Assembly (NCBI GenBank): GCA_017625255.1
Contig: JAGALK010000111.1
Span: 1 to 64,000 of the forward strand
From: Lachnospiraceae bacterium
GTDB lineage: Bacteria > Bacillota > Clostridia > Lachnospirales > Lachnospiraceae
DNA: 64,000 nt
Direction of reading: 5' to 3'
The notes beneath the pieces are model-generated. The model had not been told where the DNA came from and made no database searches. It worked only from the letters and a program-made list of their open reading frames with translations. Shown here piece by piece: positions 6,417 to 26,436 of the stretch (the stretch's first letter is position 1; every line of letters begins with the position of its first letter). Both the position numbers and the translations under genes were made by a program.

Positions 6417-8525
6417 TTATTTTAAAATAAGGTGATCAATCTCGTTATAATTATCTTTACGGTTAAAGCTTCTGATTTCTTCTGTACTGGCAATATAAAA
6501 AGTATCCTGAATATAGATTCCTCTTAAATAATTATGATTTATATTATCAGACAGTGGCAATTTCATTTTTTGAATAAATTCATCATTTTCCCAAGAGAAG
6601 AGAAAATAATCATAGGTGCTTGTGTAGTCTTCGTTTTCATATTCTCCGACGAAACCAATAAGATTCGCAGATGCATCTGCTAAAATGCATTTGTAATCAT
6701 ATAAAGCTGGCGAATAGAAATAATCCGTTAAAACAGTAGTATAAAGTACTTCTGGTTTTGTGGGATTTGAAATATCAAACATTGCTAATTTTAAGCCTAA
6801 GGTTTCATTTGTATCTGGGTCGGTTTCATAGCCTATGCCTAACAATTTATCTTCTCCCCAAAAATGCAGATATTCAGAAAAGCCGGTAATTTTTAATTCA
6901 GCAAGCATTTTCGGTGAGGCAGGATCAGAAATATCTACAACAAAGAGAGGATCTGTATTTTTATAGGTAACAAAGTAAACAGTATCGCCAAAATATCTTG
7001 CAGAATAGATAATTTCACCTGTAGCTATATCTGTAAGAGAGCCTGTTAATTTCATATTTTCATCCAATAAATATAGGTTATTGGATTCTAAATAGTCATC
7101 ATCATAAGATGTTGTTAGAATCCGTAAACATCGATTTGATTCATGAATAGCAAAGGTATCCAAAATTTCTCCCGGTACAGAGGCAGCACCGATAGCGTTA
7201 AAAAATCCATTTTCCATAGAAAAGCCTGCAATTTCTGTTAGAGAATTTGGCTGGGCATAATCTGTATTGTAAAGATAAATCGAATCTGGACCAACATAAA
7301 TATCCACATAATTATGAAGGATCATAACATTATCCACAATTTCAGAGGGGGTTTGGAGATTTATGGAGGATAAAACTAAGCCTGCATTTCCCTGCTCTGA
7401 CAGGTAGATATTTTCGTAAGGAATAGTCGTATTATTAATACAGGGAATAATTCCGTTTTTTCCTTCCTTGTATGCAACATTTGTATAGACTTCCTGATTG
7501 GTAAAAAGGTAGAGTATGTTACCAATTTTACGGGAAGTATAGTAGCTTCCATCCTGTATGAAGGTTCCTTTTAAGGTTGGTTTTTCTGGGTTGGTAATAT
7601 CGTAAGTATAAAGCATGGTTTGACATTTGGTATTTATGGAATACCCAATATCTACACACATATCTGTATAGGCAATATCTTCACTGCTATAGGTGGCAGA
7701 GGAATCTTCCATAGAGGTTTCATAGTGTTGTGTAATCAGCAGGAGCTTTCCATTATCCACATAGATTTCTAAAATGCGGTCAGTGGCACTTGAATTTGGA
7801 GTGATAGTGCCAACCGGGGTTAATTTTTCGTTTGTAACATCGGTGATGCGGACTTTGGAATCTGTGGCTGTGTAAATATATTTACCATCGGTTTTGATAC
7901 GGTCGCTTTCATCTACACCGTAGGTCTGCAGATTTGTGGTGGAATACTTTAAGGAAGAATTTGCAGCACTTTTGCTGATAGAAACATCTTCCATAAGGGA
8001 TTCGGCGGCACTTTCTTCTACAGCAATATAATCACCAGCAGGAGGATCCTCTTCACTTTCAAGGATTGCGCCAGAGGTGACATAGCGGGTTTCCTCTTCA
8101 TAAAGAGCAGCTAAATAGGTGTAAACTTCATCATAGCTTTTTGCGACGGTATATAGTGTTCCGGCATCTTGTTTAGGTGCTATGACTAGAGAATCTTCGG
8201 CTGTGGCTTGTGAAGTATCTAAAATTTGTATGGACTCTTCCATAAGGAATTCATGTTCCGATGAATTCCTTTGTGCAGTTTCTATAGACGAATCAGTATT
8301 TGGACTAATCTTTGAAGATACAATGGATAAAAGCAGACAAAATAATAACACAGCAGCGGCAGATATAGTCCTTTGTATAGGATAAATATGCCAATTATGC
8401 TTTGGATTTGCTTTTATACTTGAAATATCTAGGGTCTTATGTATGTTTTCTGGGGACAGGGATTCTGGTATTTCTACTGCATCAGCAGAATTTCTGATTT
8501 TCTTTAATAATTCTTTATCTGTCAT
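6417..8525 (-). CDS. membrane-anchored beta-propeller protein, candidate anti-sigma factor
   Basis: About 702 residues. A cytoplasmic N-terminal segment of about 50 residues is followed by one membrane helix (about 52-72), and the long outer part matches the secreted beta-propeller family PF09826 (motifs YGVDESDRIKTDGKYIY and repeated blade-like segments with DISNPTKPE and DISDPASPK). The ATG at 8525 is preferred over the GTG at 8534 because AAGGAG lies eight bases before the ATG and abuts the GTG. The ribosome binding site overlaps the end of the sigma-factor gene, so the pair is translationally linked. Sigma factor next to a single-span protein suggests a membrane anti-sigma factor or sensor. 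This role is inferred: no known anti-sigma domain is evident in the short N-terminus. Confidence 0.75.
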   Translation of the reverse strand: MTDKELLKKIRNSADAVEIPESLSPENIHKTLDISSIKANPKHNWHIYPIQRTISAAAVLLFCLLLSIVSSKISPNTDSSIETAQRNSSEHEFLMEESIQILDTSQATAEDSLVIAPKQDAGTLYTVAKSYDEVYTYLAALYEEETRYVTSGAILESEEDPPAGDYIAVEESAAESLMEDVSISKSAANSSLKYSTTNLQTYGVDESDRIKTDGKYIYTATDSKVRITDVTNEKLTPVGTITPNSSATDRILEIYVDNGKLLLITQHYETSMEDSSATYSSEDIAYTDMCVDIGYSINTKCQTMLYTYDITNPEKPTLKGTFIQDGSYYTSRKIGNILYLFTNQEVYTNVAYKEGKNGIIPCINNTTIPYENIYLSEQGNAGLVLSSINLQTPSEIVDNVMILHNYVDIYVGPDSIYLYNTDYAQPNSLTEIAGFSMENGFFNAIGAASVPGEILDTFAIHESNRCLRILTTSYDDDYLESNNLYLLDENMKLTGSLTDIATGEIIYSARYFGDTVYFVTYKNTDPLFVVDISDPASPKMLAELKITGFSEYLHFWGEDKLLGIGYETDPDTNETLGLKLAMFDISNPTKPEVLYTTVLTDYFYSPALYDYKCILADASANLIGFVGEYENEDYTSTYDYFLFSWENDEFIQKMKLPLSDNINHNYLRGIYIQDTFYIASTEEIRSFNRKDNYNEIDHLILK

Positions 8526-8530
8526 AGGTG

Positions 8531-9046
8531 TCACTCCTTTTCTGGCTTTAGATTTGCTGCCATCTTTTTTAAAGCACGACTTTCTTTGGAACGGATAGTA
8601 TTTTCATTCATATGAAGAATTTTAGCAATTTCCCGACTTTTGTATCCGGCAAAAATATGCATACTGATAATTAATCGTTCTTCATCGGATAGAGAAAAAA
8701 ATTCTTCTCGAATGATAGTATCCATTTCAAGATTTTTAGAACAGGGCTCTGGAAAATCCCAAGGAATTTCTTCTAAGGATAAATTTTGATTTTTAAATCG
8801 TTGTTTGCACTTATTGGAAAGAATTGTAAATATCCATGCCTTAAAGGATTCTTCCCTGCGCAGTTTGTGAATCTGGGCATATGCCTCTAGAATGGTTTCA
8901 CTGACTAAATCTTCTGCATCTGTGGGATTTTTTAAGGTGTAAAGTGCAAAATGATAAAGGTCCTTATAAATTTTCTCATAAAGTGCGGCAAAGGCAGTAG
9001 GATCTTTTGACTTTGCTTTTTTTATTAATTGTAAATCTGTTTTCAT
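8531..9046 (-). CDS. ECF-type RNA polymerase sigma factor
   Basis: About 171 residues with sigma-70 region 2 (DAEDLVSETILEAYAQIH; KAWIFTILSNKCK) and region 4 (LSDEERLIISMHIFAGYKSR; helix-turn-helix IAKILHMNENTIRSKESRA). Length and layout are those of a Group 4 sigma factor. The ATG at 9046 is chosen because GGGAG lies eight bases upstream; a TTG at 9061 would be too close to that site. It precedes and overlaps the regulatory region of the beta-propeller gene, so it probably directs transcription in response to an envelope signal sensed by that partner. Confidence 0.88.
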   Translation of the reverse strand: MKTDLQLIKKAKSKDPTAFAALYEKIYKDLYHFALYTLKNPTDAEDLVSETILEAYAQIHKLRREESFKAWIFTILSNKCKQRFKNQNLSLEEIPWDFPEPCSKNLEMDTIIREEFFSLSDEERLIISMHIFAGYKSREIAKILHMNENTIRSKESRALKKMAANLKPEKE

Positions 9047-9195
9047 TAGCATCTCTCCCAAATAGCTATTTTTATTATGCTGTTATAGAATAGTGTGAGT
9101 TTTTTTCTTTTTTGTTGCAAGTAAAATAAAATTTATAAGAATATTTTTAATATTTTTGTATATACTATAATTGTAAGAAAGATAATAAATTTTGC
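9047..9195. other. AT-rich divergent region before the ECF operon and tRNA-Cys
   Basis: No gene is seen. It holds the leader of the sigma-factor gene (leftward). On the minus strand there is TGCAAC about 16 bases before CACACTATTC, which could be an ECF promoter, but the match is too loose to call. The consensus promoter of tRNA-Cys begins at the right end. Confidence 0.4.
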
Positions 9196-20730: not shown

Positions 20731-20835
20731 AAAAATAAAACCGATGGTATTTTGCATGGTACTTATAAGTGAAAAAAGTAAAAATTCAAAATATAATCGA
20801 AGGAGAGGACATGAATATGAGAAGACAAACATTTG
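20731..20835 (+). repeat. duplicated leader, copy 1
   Basis: About 105 bases of leader and signal-peptide start are nearly identical to 22265-22368. Each copy contains the perfect palindrome ACTTATAAGT (20761-20770 here), two direct ATGGTA elements just before it, and the same GAGAGGACATGAATATG start region. The gene was duplicated together with its control region. Confidence 0.85.
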
Positions 20836-22253
20836 GAAAGAAAATTTTTAGCAGTATTTTGGCAGCATCTATGATGATTTCACCTTTTGGAGGATTAGAA
20901 ATTGTTCATGCAGCAAATGATTTAGAGGGGGATACAGCTGCTGAGGCAGTAGAGTTTTCTGTCGGTGTAGAAGAAAGACATGCAATAGAAGATAAATCGG
21001 ATGTGGACTGGTATAAATTTACAACAGATAGCACAGATTCTTTTTATGCGATTAAATTGACAAATGCAGCAGTAACCGATGAAGTAATGTTTCGAGTATA
21101 TGAAGATGCAGATGGTACAAAAAAAGTAGGAAGTTCTAGCTATGGTGTAGATAAAAAGACGACACAGACAAGTGATATGGGTAAGCTTTTAAGTAATCAT
21201 ACCTATTATGTCTGGGTAGATGCAGACAATTCAGGTACGGGTGAATATACCTTTCAGGTAACCAAGACAGAGGATGATGTAAAGGATACCGTTGCAGAAG
21301 CACAGGAAATTGCTGTTAATACAGAGATTGAGCGAGGCTTGCAAAATATAGACGATGATGATTATTTTAAATTTACTACAGATGGAAGTGATTCGTTCTA
21401 TAGCTTTTCGTTTACAAACATCAGTATGTCTGGTGATGCATATTATCATGTGTACTATGATGAGAATTGTACAGAATATGTTGCAAAGCACAATAATGGA
21501 GTAAATGCAAAAGCAACACAGACAAATAACATGGTAAAACTAGAAAAAAATCATACCTATTATATTAAGGTTTTTTCTAATAAAGTTGGTTCTTATAAAT
21601 TTAGTGTGACAAGTATTTTAGATGATGTAAATGACACTGCTACAGAAGCAAATAGTATAGCTTTAAACGATACCAGATATTATAATATCCAGAATGTAAA
21701 AGATGTGGATTATTTTACCTTTCAAACATCTGATTTTACTGAATACAGATTGATTTTTGCAAATATAGATTTGAATGGTAAGGTGAATATTGAGATATAT
21801 TCCGGAAAAGATTGTCTGAATAATCAGAAAGTATACAGTACATCATTGTCTCTAAAAGGCTCTGTAGATAAGACAAAGGGTAAGATTAAGTTAGGTCGTT
21901 TCAAGAATTATTATGTAAAAGTCACTGGAAGTGTTACTGGAAAGTATAAGTTAGGTATTGATGCAGCAGCTCCTGATAATTTAAAAACCTCTAAGGCTGG
22001 AAGCAAAAAAGTCACTGTAAAATGGGGAAAGGTTACTCGGGCAAACGGTTATGAAATCTATCGTTCTCAGACAAGAAACGGTAAGTATAAGAAAATTAAG
22101 ACTATTAAGAAAGCAAATACAGTAAAATTTGTAGATAAAAAGGGACTTAAAAAAGGAAAAACTTATTTTTATAAAGTAAGAGCATATAAAAAAGCTAAGG
22201 GAAAAACTTATTATAGTGCATTTTCTACTGTAAAATCTATTAAAGTAAAATAA
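20811..22253 (+). CDS. secreted protein with three PPC-like repeats and a C-terminal FnIII domain
   Basis: About 480 residues. A Sec signal peptide ends near VHA-AN. Three repeats of about 110 residues follow, each opening with DTxxEA and a DVDWYKFTT-type motif. They resemble bacterial pre-peptidase C-terminal (PPC) beta-sandwich domains. A fibronectin type III domain rich in Lys closes the protein (VTVKWGKVTRANGYEIYRSQ). No catalytic domain or sorting motif is seen, so it is probably a surface or secreted binding protein. Start 20811 follows AGGAG by five bases; the ATG at 20817 is also possible. The downstream gene is a longer paralogue. Confidence 0.78.
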   Translation: MNMRRQTFGKKIFSSILAASMMISPFGGLEIVHAANDLEGDTAAEAVEFSVGVEERHAIEDKSDVDWYKFTTDSTDSFYAIKLTNAAVTDEVMFRVYEDADGTKKVGSSSYGVDKKTTQTSDMGKLLSNHTYYVWVDADNSGTGEYTFQVTKTEDDVKDTVAEAQEIAVNTEIERGLQNIDDDDYFKFTTDGSDSFYSFSFTNISMSGDAYYHVYYDENCTEYVAKHNNGVNAKATQTNNMVKLEKNHTYYIKVFSNKVGSYKFSVTSILDDVNDTATEANSIALNDTRYYNIQNVKDVDYFTFQTSDFTEYRLIFANIDLNGKVNIEIYSGKDCLNNQKVYSTSLSLKGSVDKTKGKIKLGRFKNYYVKVTGSVTGKYKLGIDAAAPDNLKTSKAGSKKVTVKWGKVTRANGYEIYRSQTRNGKYKKIKTIKKANTVKFVDKKGLKKGKTYFYKVRAYKKAKGKTYYSAFSTVKSIKVK

Positions 22254-22264
22254 ATTATTTTACA

Positions 22265-22368
22265 AAAAATAAAACCTATGGTATTTTGGATGGTACTTAT
22301 AAGTGAAATAAGTAAAATTCAAAATATAATCGAAAGAGAGGACATGAATATGAGAAGACAAAAATTAG
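22265..22368 (+). repeat. duplicated leader, copy 2
   Basis: Second copy of the leader seen at 20731-20835, again with the ACTTATAAGT palindrome (22295-22304). It fills the whole gap between the two paralogous genes, and no terminator stands between them. Confidence 0.85.
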
Positions 22369-24890
22369 CAAAGAGAATTTGCAGCAGTATTTTGGCAGCA
22401 GTGATGACATTATCATCCTTTAGTGGAATGGAGATTGTACATGCAGCAGAGGATGAAGCAGGTGCTACCGGTGCAGAAGCAGTAACACATGAAATTGGAA
22501 AAGCTACAACCGGAGAAATCCAGAATGCAGAGGATGTAGATGTATACAAATTTACAACCGATGAGAGTGATGCTTTTTATAAATTAAATTTCGAGAATAT
22601 CAATGATGGTTCAAGTATACATTATGAGATTTATTCTGACGAAGATTTATTGGAAAAGATAGGTGATGATTATTTTAACCTTATAAGTACATATGATTTT
22701 GTGAAATTGCCGGCAAATACCACATATTATATTAAGGTATTTGATGAGTATGTAAGTGAAGAGGTAGCTTCAAAATATAAATTTAAAGTTACTAAAACCG
22801 TGGATGATGTAAAAGATACAGCAGCAGAAGCAACAGCAGTAGCTATTGATACAGAAAAAACAGGTGTAATTCAGCATAATACAGATGCAGATGTATTTTC
22901 ATTTACAACGGATGAGAGCAATGTATTTTATCAGTTTAAATTTGAAAATATAGATAAAGAAAGTATTTTAGAGTACCAAATATATGCAGATGCAAACTTG
23001 ACAACAGAAATCGCAAGCGATTGGGCAATTTATCCAAATGATGGTTCTAATGGACATATAAGAACAAGTGATTTGGGAAAATTAGACAAAAATACCACTT
23101 ACTATGTAAAAGTGACGGGAGAGCTCTGTGATGGCGGAGATGCTGTAGATTATAAATTTGTATTTACCAGTGTATTAGACGATGCTAAAGATACAACAGC
23201 AGAAGCAACAGAAGCAGTTGTTGGAACAGAAACTGCCGGTATAATTCAAAAAAGAGACATTGATCTTGATATATATGCATTTCATTTAGATAACACAGAT
23301 TCCTTCTATAGATTTAAGCTGACAAATGTAAGTGATACAGATGTCAGAGTATATTATAAAATATATTCTGATGCAGATTTTACGAATTGTGTCGGAGAAG
23401 GAAGCAGTTGGGGAATTGCTGCAAAGGAAAGCAGCGAATTGGATTTGGCAAGATTGACTCCTAATCATACCTATTATTTAAAGGTTACCGGAATGGAAGG
23501 TGCTGCCTATAAATTTATTATGACAAAAATAGAGGATGATATAAAGGATACAGTAGAAGAAGCAAAAGTCTTTACCATGGGAGAACAGGTAAAATGCGGA
23601 ATTCAGAACAATGCTGATGTGGATATGTTTGCTTTTGTTACGGATGGAACAGACTCTTTCTATGAGTTTACTCTGACAAATATCAGCTCTGATAATGTCA
23701 GAGTATATTATAAAATATATTCTGATGCAGATCTTACGAATTGTGTCGGAGAAGGAAGCAGTTGGGGTATCGCCAAGGGGGAAAGCAGCTGTGTTGATTT
23801 TGCAAAATTGACACCAAATAGTACATATTATGTAAAAGTTACCGGTTTAGTAGATGCAAAAACAGCCCAGTATAGATTCAGTGTAAAGAAAACACAGGAT
23901 GATATTAGTGACTCCATTAACGCGGCAAAAGCATTTGCAGTTGATTCTAAAGTAAATGGCGGAATTCAGAACAATGCTGATGTGGATTATTATACATTTA
24001 CCACTGATGGAAGTGATGCATTCTATACCATGACGATGAATAATACCAGTGATGAGAAGTGTAATGTATATTTTAAGATTTATTCCAATATGGAAATGAC
24101 GGATGATGCATTTGTAGGTGAGGGTGATTACTGGGGAATCGGCAAGAAAGAAACCCATATTACAAATCTTGGAAAAATCAAACCATATACCACATACTAT
24201 ATGAAGGTTTGGGGAACTGTAAATACTTATAATTTTACATTGAGTAAAGCGGTAGACGATGTAAAGGATACAGTAGAAGAAGCAAAAGTAATTGCATTAA
24301 ATGAAAGTAAGACATTTGGTATTCAGAATGTGAAGGATGCAGATGTATTCGCATTTACAGCTTCCGGTTTTGAAAATTATACAGTAACTTTTGCAAACAC
24401 CAGCATTGATGGCAATGCTTATATGGAAATCTATTCCAGTAAAGAGTGTTTAAACAGCCAGAAAATTTATAATGCTGCCATAGGCTTAAAGGGATCTATT
24501 GCAAAGGATAGAAATGCTTTAAAATTAAGCACTTCTACAAAAACCTATTATATAAAAGTATGGGGAAGTGCAACAGGAAGCTATAAATTAGGCATCAGTG
24601 CAGTTGCACCAAAATCTGCTAAGGTAACAAAAGCCGGAACAAAAAAGGTTACTATCAAATGGGGAAAAGTAAGCAAAGCAACCGGATATGAGATTTACCG
24701 TGCACAGGGCAAAAAAGGTAAATACAAAAAGATTAAGACTATCAAAAAAGCAAAAACCGTAAAATATGTGGACAAAAAGGGTCTGAAAAAGGGTAAAACC
24801 TATTGTTATAAAGTAAGAGCCTATAAGAAGGTAAAAGGTAAAACCTATTACAGTGCATTTTCTACTGTAAAAACTATTAAAATTAAATAA
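22344..24890 (+). CDS. secreted protein with six PPC-like repeats and a C-terminal FnIII domain
   Basis: About 848 residues and paralogous to the gene just upstream: same signal peptide, same repeat type, and the same FnIII end (VTIKWGKVSKATGYEIYRAQ). It has six repeats instead of three. Repeats three and four share an almost identical stretch of about 75 bases (near 23343 and 23697), which shows recent internal duplication or conversion. A longer in-frame start at 22278 would run through the duplicated leader and lacks a signal peptide, so 22344 is used. No enzymatic motif is visible. A terminator follows. Confidence 0.78.
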   Translation: MNMRRQKLAKRICSSILAAVMTLSSFSGMEIVHAAEDEAGATGAEAVTHEIGKATTGEIQNAEDVDVYKFTTDESDAFYKLNFENINDGSSIHYEIYSDEDLLEKIGDDYFNLISTYDFVKLPANTTYYIKVFDEYVSEEVASKYKFKVTKTVDDVKDTAAEATAVAIDTEKTGVIQHNTDADVFSFTTDESNVFYQFKFENIDKESILEYQIYADANLTTEIASDWAIYPNDGSNGHIRTSDLGKLDKNTTYYVKVTGELCDGGDAVDYKFVFTSVLDDAKDTTAEATEAVVGTETAGIIQKRDIDLDIYAFHLDNTDSFYRFKLTNVSDTDVRVYYKIYSDADFTNCVGEGSSWGIAAKESSELDLARLTPNHTYYLKVTGMEGAAYKFIMTKIEDDIKDTVEEAKVFTMGEQVKCGIQNNADVDMFAFVTDGTDSFYEFTLTNISSDNVRVYYKIYSDADLTNCVGEGSSWGIAKGESSCVDFAKLTPNSTYYVKVTGLVDAKTAQYRFSVKKTQDDISDSINAAKAFAVDSKVNGGIQNNADVDYYTFTTDGSDAFYTMTMNNTSDEKCNVYFKIYSNMEMTDDAFVGEGDYWGIGKKETHITNLGKIKPYTTYYMKVWGTVNTYNFTLSKAVDDVKDTVEEAKVIALNESKTFGIQNVKDADVFAFTASGFENYTVTFANTSIDGNAYMEIYSSKECLNSQKIYNAAIGLKGSIAKDRNALKLSTSTKTYYIKVWGSATGSYKLGISAVAPKSAKVTKAGTKKVTIKWGKVSKATGYEIYRAQGKKGKYKKIKTIKKAKTVKYVDKKGLKKGKTYCYKVRAYKKVKGKTYYSAFSTVKTIKIK
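23343..23774 (+). repeat. internal near-identical repeat of about 75 bp (two copies)
   Basis: Copies begin near 23343 and 23697, with the shared run GTCAGAGTATATTATAAAAT and continuing to GGAAGCAGTTGGGG with a single base change. They lie in consecutive PPC-like repeats of the same gene. Confidence 0.85.
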
Positions 24891-24897
24891 GTAATAT

Positions 24898-24938
24898 AAA
24901 ACCTGCTGTCATGCAAAATTGTGTGACAGCAGGTTTTA
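24898..24938 (+). terminator. terminator after the PPC-repeat genes
   Basis: Arms AAAACCTGCTGTCA and TGTGACAGCAGGTTTT enclose a short loop. It is symmetrical enough to act on both strands. Confidence 0.88.
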
Positions 24939-24953
24939 TATATTGGCAAATAG

Positions 24954-24983
24954 TTGCCAGTGGTAAGTTTTGTAGGTTATACT
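24954..24983 (+). promoter_or_regulatory. promoter of the tethered sigma-factor gene
   Basis: -35 TTGCCA (24954-24959), 18-bp spacer, -10 TATACT (24978-24983). It lies just after the preceding terminator, so the sigma gene is a separate unit. Confidence 0.7.
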
Positions 24984-25017: not shown

Positions 25018-26319
25018 ATGGACCAGATGTTAGAACAAGCCATTGAGCAGTTAAAAAATGGCGAACAGCAAGGCTTTCAGATTTTATATGATAAAACACA
25101 CAATTATGTCTATATGCAGGCTAGAAATTTTTTGAAAAATGAATCTGATGCAAATGATTTAGTTCAGGAGGTATATATCAATGCCTATCGTTCTATTCAT
25201 TCCCTGCAGGAAAATCAGAAGATATATGGCTGGCTTTGCGGAATTACTTTTCGGCAGGCAACCAAATTGATGCGCAAACAAAAAGAAGTCCTTATGCAGG
25301 ATGAAGAGGAAGGCATATTTGAAAATATTGTAGATTTTGATGAAGATATTCAGCCGGAGAAGGCATTGGATAAAAAGACCTCTGCCCAGATTTTGCTGGA
25401 TTTAATGGATGAATTGCCAGAGCTGCAAAAAGGAGCATTACTTGCATATTACTATGATGAAATGAGTATAGGAGAAATTGCAGAAATTTATTCCTGTAGT
25501 GAAGGTACAATAAAAAGCCGTCTGAATTATGCCAGAAAAAGCTTAAAGGAGTTAATACAGAAAAAAGAAGAAAAAGATGGTATCAAATTGTATAGCTTTA
25601 GCTTACCGTTGCTCTTATTGGCACTACATATGTTTGTAGATACAAGTCTCATGGATGTAAAGGCTGCAGAGATAGTCTGTGAAAAGTGTTTAAAAGAGAT
25701 GGATTTGTCATTGAATGAAACACTTTTTACAGCAAAGCAAAGCTATGCAGAAAATATTGTGACAGATGCCGCAGAAATTGCTAAAAATGGAATATATATT
25801 GGAGAAAAATTTGTGACAGCAAGAGCATTGGCTGTTGGAGCAGCGGCTGTACTTGCTTTGGGAATCGGCGGTGGAACATTTGCCGGGTATAAAATGGCAC
25901 AGAAGGAATATGAAGCTATAAAGCCTGTAAATGAAGTGATTTCAGTTGAAATTTTAGATGATACAGAAGAATTAGAAATTATCGAGACAGAGACTACGAC
26001 AGAAATTATGGAGGAAACAGAGGAAGCTGTTACAGAAATAGTAGAAACAGAAGAAGCAGCTACAGAAATGCCGGAAACAGAAATACAGACAGAGTCGGCG
26101 GAAGTGCCAGAACCAGAGCCGGCACCGGTACCGACACCAGAAACAGAGCCAACACCGGCGCCAGAGCCAGTACCGGTATCAGAGCCGACACCAGAACCAG
26201 CACCGGCGCCAGAACCGGCACCAGAACCAACGCCGGCACCGGAGGTTACTGTGACGCAGGAAGAAAATTCAGGTGAGGATGAGTTTGTACTAGATGCTCC
26301 GGAAGTAGAAGTGGAATAA
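25018..26319 (+). CDS. ECF sigma factor fused to membrane segment and Pro/Glu-rich tail
   Basis: A 433-residue protein. Residues about 18-90 are sigma region 2 (NESDANDLVQEVYINAYRSI) and 127-180 are region 4 (LQKGALLAYYYDEMSIGEIA; GTIKSRLNYARKSL). A hydrophobic stretch at 191-209 and a clear membrane helix at 269-290 follow. The last 130 residues are first acidic Thr/Glu-rich and then a Pro/Glu/Ala repeat (PAPEPAPEPTP). The sigma domains would thus be held at the membrane in cis. How it is released, and whether the tail is outside, are not known; if both hydrophobic stretches cross the membrane the tail would be inside. It has its own promoter and terminator. Confidence 0.82.
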   Translation: MDQMLEQAIEQLKNGEQQGFQILYDKTHNYVYMQARNFLKNESDANDLVQEVYINAYRSIHSLQENQKIYGWLCGITFRQATKLMRKQKEVLMQDEEEGIFENIVDFDEDIQPEKALDKKTSAQILLDLMDELPELQKGALLAYYYDEMSIGEIAEIYSCSEGTIKSRLNYARKSLKELIQKKEEKDGIKLYSFSLPLLLLALHMFVDTSLMDVKAAEIVCEKCLKEMDLSLNETLFTAKQSYAENIVTDAAEIAKNGIYIGEKFVTARALAVGAAAVLALGIGGGTFAGYKMAQKEYEAIKPVNEVISVEILDDTEELEIIETETTTEIMEETEEAVTEIVETEEAATEMPETEIQTESAEVPEPEPAPVPTPETEPTPAPEPVPVSEPTPEPAPAPEPAPEPTPAPEVTVTQEENSGEDEFVLDAPEVEVE

Positions 26320-26324
26320 AAGAG

Positions 26325-26368
26325 ACAGTGATATGTATAGTATGATGCTATCGTATCACTGTTTTTTT
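26325..26368 (+). terminator. terminator of the tethered sigma-factor gene
   Basis: Arms ACAGTGATA and TATCACTGT, followed by seven T residues. The PhoP-box-like array starts immediately after it. Confidence 0.85.
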
Positions 26369-26370
26369 GA

Positions 26371-26436
26371 TTTACAAACATTTTACATAGGATTTACAAA
26401 ACTGACGGTATTTATTTTACATTGGAGAATTATTGT
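26371..26436 (+). promoter_or_regulatory. PhoP-box array and promoter of the pst operon
   Basis: TTTACA hexamers stand at 26371, 26382 and 26393, exactly 11 bp apart, with a fourth at 26416. A -10-like TATTGT (26431-26436) lies nine bases after the last one. Direct TT(A/T)ACA repeats at 11-bp spacing are the known binding pattern of PhoP in Bacillus. The same layout recurs before the Na/Pi cotransporter gene. Confidence 0.82.

Follow-up and report, generated by a model that had tools for sequence, protein, structure and literature searches.

A predicted membrane-tethered extracytoplasmic function sigma factor and a candidate promoter element before neighbouring PPC-repeat genes in a Lachnospiraceae bacterium

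Membrane-tethered extracytoplasmic function (ECF) sigma factors of the fused type are known from few cases, and one proteolytic activation route has been characterised (PMC8999054). This route is that of IutY of Pseudomonas putida (group ECF243), presented in the same source as the only fused-type ECF factor with experimentally characterised proteolytic activation. In group ECF52, e.g. SCO4117 of Streptomyces coelicolor, the sigma factor, a transmembrane region and a proline-rich extension form one chain that also includes a zinc-finger anti-sigma and a carbohydrate-binding domain; the group is described there as exclusive to Actinobacteria, release by proteolysis has been proposed, with SCO4117 following the IutY route, and autoregulation has been suggested (PMC5826349, PMC8999054). 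ECF262 and ECF288, groups with regulatory extensions, are listed with models from the Clostridia Ruminococcus albus and Blautia producta (PMC8999054, Table 2). The SigI–RsgI systems of cellulolytic clostridia are described as having paralogous sensors with different extracellular modules, secreted targets, promoters composed of a common and a sigma-specific part, and an RsgI helix that is cleaved by RseP (PMC6056542, PMC12203970). Here we describe a gene on a stretch of 64,000 nucleotides from a Lachnospiraceae bacterium (assembly GCA_017625255.1, contig JAGALK010000111.1, positions 1 to 64,000, forward strand; hereafter the window). With a probability of roughly 0.6, it encodes a tethered sigma factor with a sensor outside the cell, which would be activated by a signal and act at promoter-like elements of two neighbouring PPC-repeat genes. 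The gene and its parts are as follows.

25018–26319, + strand: gene of the predicted membrane-tethered ECF sigma factor, an open reading frame (ORF) of 433 aa with an ATG start
25084–25284, + strand: sigma region 2, residues 23–89 (Pfam PF04542 Sigma70_r2, E 1.2e-10)
25387–25545, + strand: sigma region 4, residues 124–176 (Pfam PF08281 Sigma70_r4_2, E 5e-13)
25585–25626, + strand: conserved hydrophobic motif KLYSFSLPLLLLAL, residues 190–203, a predicted helix with the family pattern (K/R)L(Y/H)SxxxPxLLLL
25810–25866, + strand: predicted membrane helix serving as the tether (best 19-residue window of the hydrophobicity scan, residues 265–283)
25915–26316, + strand: acidic Pro/Glu/Thr-rich tail by composition, residues 300–433, predicted to lie outside the cell
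26290–26316, + strand: C-terminal peptide LDAPEVEVE, with similar ends in the three nearest orthologues (four sequences only)

Both sigma regions scored beyond their curated Pfam cut-offs, and the only further Pfam match above cut-off was a generic ECF model. Many ECF models were found among the NCBIfam matches listed (best 25 of 109), of which the general sigma70-ECF superfamily alone exceeded its cut-off. With regions 2 and 4 present and no Pfam match to region 3 in the ORF, the protein has the composition of group 4 (ECF) sigma factors, and the closest PDB matches of the modelled protein in Foldseek were the ECF factors SigW, AlgU and SigmaE. Region 4 is followed by a hydrophobic stretch, a linker, the membrane helix and the tail, so the view of the initial annotation that sensor, tether and sigma factor form one polypeptide is borne out by a single ORF. 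Its statement that no separate anti-sigma gene stands beside the sigma gene also held: the immediate neighbours encode a PPC/fn3 protein and a PstS-like protein, and neither they nor the sigma protein matched an anti-sigma family (Pfam; NCBIfam among the matches listed), so that a canonical sigma/anti-sigma gene pair was not found at 25018–26319. A hidden zinc-finger or other anti-sigma domain within the sigma protein was considered and rejected, as neither Pfam nor NCBIfam (best 25 of 109) gave a match. Elsewhere in the window (6417–9061, − strand), the gene of an ordinary ECF sigma factor (176 aa) shares 4 bases with that of a 705-aa protein whose N-terminal part contains a hydrophobic segment; this canonical sigma/anti-sigma-like pair is a useful contrast to the tethered sigma factor.

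A search of other genomes for the same domain order, as had been proposed, yielded 53 fused proteins, the window's included. They were drawn from the loci at hand; near-copies were removed, two of which were restored, and L050, a sigma protein that has eight membrane segments, was excluded from the helix and linker set. Of the sequence sets used, A1 lacks L047 and L087, whose extensions could not be placed, and A4 additionally lacks L069 and L044. Hydrophobic segments were defined by a score >1.6 on a 19-residue Kyte–Doolittle scan. The window protein had two such stretches, residues 189–207 (1.74) and residues 265–283 (1.99), whereas exactly one was present in 47 of the 53 proteins and two in the other six. 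All 53 had a helix behind the sigma part and none had one beyond the tether. In the six two-segment proteins, the extra segment lay at or near the motif (K/R)L(Y/H)SxxxPxLLLL, where the remaining relatives stay below the threshold; this pattern is based on column counts from 51 sequences, and its loose form matched 43 of the 53 proteins. Two membrane passes were rejected because the second segment exceeded the threshold in only 6/53, and the first stretch was read as a motif, probably cytoplasmic, and the second as the sole helix. The initial annotation had listed a hydrophobic stretch and a membrane helix; both are present, although a reading as two passes does not stand.

The C-terminal tail had been suggested to lie outside the cell, which is probably so. 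Based on composition and family, the sigma part is most likely inside and the tail outside (N-in, C-out), since there is a single tether and surface-type modules occupy the place behind it in relatives. Pfam modules in the ectodomains were Big_2 (three proteins), WG repeats (two) and LRR, YARHG and SH3 (one each), while most ectodomains had no match. Lys and Arg were more frequent in the 15 residues before the helix than in the 15 after it in 35 of the 53 proteins, equally frequent in six and less frequent in 12. The window ectodomain is 150 residues long, acidic and Pro-rich; its last 133 residues (301–433) contain 38 Glu, 24 Pro, 18 Thr, 1 Lys and no Arg. An antisense open frame of 212 aa opposite the Pro/Glu-rich tail (25743–26381, − strand) was taken as a by-product of the repeats.

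The same domain order occurred in one clear paralogue in the own genome (G000:C141, 722 aa). A match at E 1e-12 was present in 57 of 98 genomes (own included), many of these matches being ordinary short ECF factors, and 43 of 397 genomes of the same family had a match at E ≤1e-24, mostly open frames of ~430–1000 residues with few short ones (e.g. 187, 210 and 234). The nearest orthologues were found in G448 (L046; 66% identity over the sigma part), G449 (L104; 67%) and G466 (L105; 54% over residues 1–409), and they end in LDTPDLNIE, LDAPEINVE and QAPDLTIEE. The relatives that carry names are Clostridia, namely an uncultured Eubacterium (L046) and Oscillibacter (L047–L048). Mean column identity was 30% from the sigma part to the helix (51 sequences) and 8% in the ectodomains (53), which are not related among themselves and whose length ranged from 150 to 1081 residues (median 322). 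In G381 (L077, L078), four fused sigma genes on one contig (G381:C7) shared 89–99% identity in their sigma parts and 24–33% in their ectodomains, as if several inputs fed one output. As judged from these comparisons, the window protein is a sensor-swapping variant of a fused ECF sigma factor and not an isolated freak fusion. The family may correspond to ECF262 or ECF288. A literature search found no paper on the fused-sigma family, but the main ECF classification paper lay outside this search and we make no claim that the family is undescribed.

Three further observations concern the family. The four genes on G381:C7 sit among genes for zinc-ribbon-like and secreted proteins. One fused-sigma clade (L018, L019, L025, L064, L086 and others) has a CxxC-CxxC zinc-ribbon-like segment N-terminal to region 2. 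At L050 (1924–5379), an ECF sigma factor is fused to the large protein with eight membrane segments, presumably resembling an FtsX/MacB-type permease.

Upstream of the sigma gene lie two genes for repeat proteins with a C-terminal fn3 domain, each preceded by a promoter-like element.

20736–20765, + strand: TAAAACC-N15-GGTACTTA, promoter-like element ahead of the first PPC gene
20769–22253, + strand: PPC-repeat/fn3 secreted protein 1, a likely target; the real start is probably the ATG at 20811 or 20817
22270–22299, + strand: TAAAACC-N15-GGTACTTA, promoter-like element ahead of the second PPC gene, lying within the ORF as listed mechanically
22278–24890, + strand: PPC-repeat/fn3 secreted protein 2, a likely target; the real start is probably the ATG at 22344 or 22350

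As the element at 22270–22299 falls within the listed ORF, the second PPC gene would start further downstream than listed. On reading the upstream DNA by eye, ATAAAACC-N15-GGTACTTATA or close forms were found before both window PPC genes. Elements of this type also occurred twice before the PPC gene of G448, once in G449, in tandem in G466 and before the sigma and PPC genes of G118; the general form is TAAAAC(C/T)-N15-GGTACTTA. The G466 array (L105, 10854–11151) consists of five copies spaced 66–68 bp apart before the PPC gene. The own 3.1-Mb genome contained two exact matches to TAAAACYN15GGTACTTA, each before a PPC gene. Across nine genomes there were 17 exact matches, 12 of them directly before a fused sigma gene or its adjacent gene, four in G381 at ~4–6 kb from a fused sigma gene and one elsewhere (G444:C26); the reversed element gave no match in any of the nine. 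When one mismatch was allowed, matches elsewhere were about as common as in the control, so only exact matches were used. The exact element was present in 8 of the 397 family genomes (the reversed control gave 17 matches in the 397), and in 4/7 genomes with a window-clade sigma gene versus 4/390 others (one-sided Fisher p 2e-6). The carriers with the exact element were G000, G118, G381 and G444; G431, G214 and G016 had none, with near matches before the sigma genes of G431 and G016.

The spacing was also characteristic. With a loose pattern, TAAAACY-Nx-(GTCT or TACT), 50 loci (491 kb, identical contexts entered once) contained 38 sites at x = 17 versus six at the remaining spacings in the range 12–22 taken together. 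These 38 sites lay before a sigma gene (12, the one at 24839 in the window being doubtful), a gene within two of it (19), other genes (six) or no gene (one). Several relatives carry the element before their own sigma gene. A weak match at 24839, within the coding end of the second PPC gene, was considered as such an element for the window sigma gene and taken as chance. The −10 half differed between sigma clades, while the −35 box was kept: the window clade has GGTACTTA, a second clade, many of whose members carry the zinc-ribbon-like segment at the N-terminus, has CGTCTA, and a third has TGTCT. In a tree built from 49 sigma parts, the −10 types required three changes (minimum two), and none of 200 shuffles was as low. 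For the second type, the exact form TAAAACYN16CGTCTAG occurred in 4/7 carriers versus 0/10 genomes without a family match; five of its six sites were located before sigma or PPC genes and the sixth ~1 kb upstream of the sigma gene in G448:C10. We infer from this distribution that TAAAAC(C/T)-N15-GGTACTTA is recognised by the window sigma factor. The apparent link of the promoter-like element to a fused-sigma clade is a new result of this analysis.

Since the exact copies in the own genome stand only before the two PPC-repeat genes, these genes are likely targets of the window sigma factor. Pfam gave no PPC match for the two window proteins themselves (E up to 1), which are named after relatives that exceed the Pfam cut-off (the L104 protein and the neighbour of the L083 sigma gene) and by a shared repeat model. 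This model, built from the window proteins, matched eight proteins among 374 ORFs of 31 loci, all encoded by immediate neighbours of a fused sigma gene, except that the first window gene stands one gene further away. It missed a ninth PPC protein, above the Pfam cut-off, beside the sigma gene of G016 (L083). At 8 of 30 distinct fused-sigma loci a PPC gene is the neighbour. In 22 whole genomes searched with the repeat model, eight had matches, and in seven of the eight all matches adjoin a fused sigma gene, G316 being the exception. G474, G454 and G455 share a different large secreted neighbour, with Listeria–Bacteroides repeats in both of the two scanned. By a crude rule, 19/43 adjacent same-strand genes were secreted-like versus 43/285 others, counts in which related loci are not independent and the window PstS was missed. 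At G444 (L076), homology (E 2e-85) extends over 330 residues between the ectodomain of the sigma protein and the secreted protein encoded next to it, and the element precedes the gene of the latter. At L048, a short stretch is common to ectodomain and neighbour (E 1e-9), and here too the element stands before the neighbour gene.

In the mechanism that we propose, a helix C-terminal to the ECF sigma part in the same chain would anchor it to the cytoplasmic side of the membrane, leaving the sensor tail outside. A signal at the tail would make the sigma part competent to join RNA polymerase, which would start transcription at TAAAAC(C/T)-N15-GGTACTTA promoters. Activation would most likely proceed by shedding of the tail and intramembrane cleavage by a site-2 protease in the Gly/Ala-rich helix, as for IutY, and an M50 protease gene (RseP homologue) is present in the own genome. 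As exact copies of the element stand only before the neighbouring PPC-repeat/fn3 genes, the output of the circuit would be secreted surface proteins, made on demand from these two genes.

Several points weigh against this reading. RseP homologues are near universal (14/14 control genomes). In two AlphaFold models, helices 196–209 and 214–227 were confident while the domain orientation was not; the predicted template modelling (pTM) scores were low (0.48 and 0.46), without a confident contact between extension and sigma domains. The idea that the extension docks on the sigma domains as a surrogate anti-sigma factor was dropped, as neither model gave a confident docking. In Foldseek, single sigma domains matched well, with whole-model TM scores of about 0.2–0.3. 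Four of the eight family genomes with the element have no window-clade sigma gene, and three of the seven carriers lack an exact match. The element had been spotted by eye at these loci before testing, and the independent part consists of the genome-wide and family counts. The two window elements are also near-copies of each other.

A possible, if rather unlikely, alternative is that the tethered sigma factor acts without release, as membrane-bound regulators of the ToxR/CadC kind act at the membrane; the signal would alter its conformation, and recruitment of RNA polymerase to PPC promoters would take place at the membrane. The tether in 53/53 relatives suits this, and the long flexible linker between motif and helix (47–108 residues in relatives with a placeable motif) would let the sigma part reach DNA. 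Furthermore, no protease gene was seen beside the sigma gene in the window. However, helices rich in Gly, Ala and Ser are common in site-2 protease substrates, and the tether helices are of this composition (mean 0.46 of residues in the 53 fused proteins). Moreover, for IutY, the fused ECF protein that has been characterised, PMC8999054 describes release through Prc and RseP.

We regard it as unlikely that the exported PPC protein binds the tail, perhaps at its C-terminal peptide, and turns the sigma factor off in a homeostatic loop; such feedback is compatible with either activation mode. It would fit the PPC gene beside the sigma gene at 8/30 loci, the homology of ectodomains to element-bearing adjacent secreted proteins at L076 and L048 and the similar C-terminal peptide in four orthologues, but the peptide rests on these four sequences, and ectodomain and neighbour are unrelated in most loci. 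A broader and more doubtful conjecture is a single-chain sigma family of gut-type Clostridia in which sigma part and promoter code are kept and sensors are freely exchanged, each of them coupled to the secreted protein encoded alongside. In the window branch, the sensor would be a mere wall-spanning rod whose conserved C-terminal peptide is read by the exported PPC protein, so that one-protein feedback measures and tops up the surface protein, perhaps without release from the membrane.

That the element is the binding site of another regulator, or a repeat that lies near these genes by chance, seems improbable: the five tandem copies in G466 and the near-identity of the two window copies point that way, but across genomes the 15-base spacer diverges while both boxes and their spacing stay, and the −10 box varies with the sigma clade while the −35 box is kept. 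A degenerate or inactive sigma factor, drifting or kept for its surface part, is hardly credible given the conservation of the sigma regions over 51 sequences (W72 invariant, 17 more positions nearly invariant) and a promoter element whose form follows the sigma clade.

Further sites flank the sigma gene.

24900–24935, + strand: terminator-like inverted repeat AACCTGCTGTCA...TGACAGCAGGTT followed by TTAT, seen by eye in the gap between PPC and sigma genes, with a loop too long for the hairpin scan
24954–24983, + strand: TTGCCA-18-TATACT, a promoter-like site of housekeeping type ahead of the sigma gene; a consensus match, such sites being no commoner than in shuffles
26371–26398, + strand: triple TTTACA repeat with an 11-bp period (TTTACA-N5-TTTACA-N5-TTTACA) before pstS, perfect and found in 0/100 shuffles

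The housekeeping-type site lies behind the hairpin that ends the PPC unit, so synthesis of the window sigma factor may be constant, with control acting on the protein. A terminator-like hairpin (26325–26368) was seen by eye 3' of the sigma gene. The initial annotation had named both the PPC-repeat genes and the phosphate regulon as possible targets; the former retain this role, with an exact element before both, whereas the latter was discarded. The TTTACA repeat, which we take to be PHO-box-like and to fit control by PhoP, together with the absence of a sigma-type element before the pst genes in the genome-wide exact-element search, makes these genes unlikely targets that would be separately controlled.

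One sigma gene with two likely targets makes a simple test system for the switching of a membrane-held sigma factor, and in a family that swaps sensors and has a readable promoter code, the surface gene controlled by each sensor could be predicted from sequence alone. Compared with ECF52, the window protein likewise has a transmembrane helix and a proline-rich extension, but no zinc-finger anti-sigma domain was found after region 4 (Pfam, E up to 1) and no carbohydrate-binding domain at the C-terminus (no Pfam match in the window tail), and its named relatives are Clostridia, not Actinobacteria. The anti-sigma part of IutY (ECF243) is FecR-like, whereas the window protein has no FecR-like Pfam match (E up to 1). 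Sigma and membrane parts in one polypeptide and an outside signal, as described for IutY (PMC8999054), are shared. The SigI–RsgI systems differ in that sigma factor and membrane sensor are two proteins there and one ORF in the window. They resemble the family described here in their varied extracellular modules, shared and sigma-specific promoter parts and secreted targets, and the likeness of sensor and target at G444 and L048 recalls the extracytoplasmic sensory modules of RsgI and their saccharolytic targets, as described in PMC6056542.
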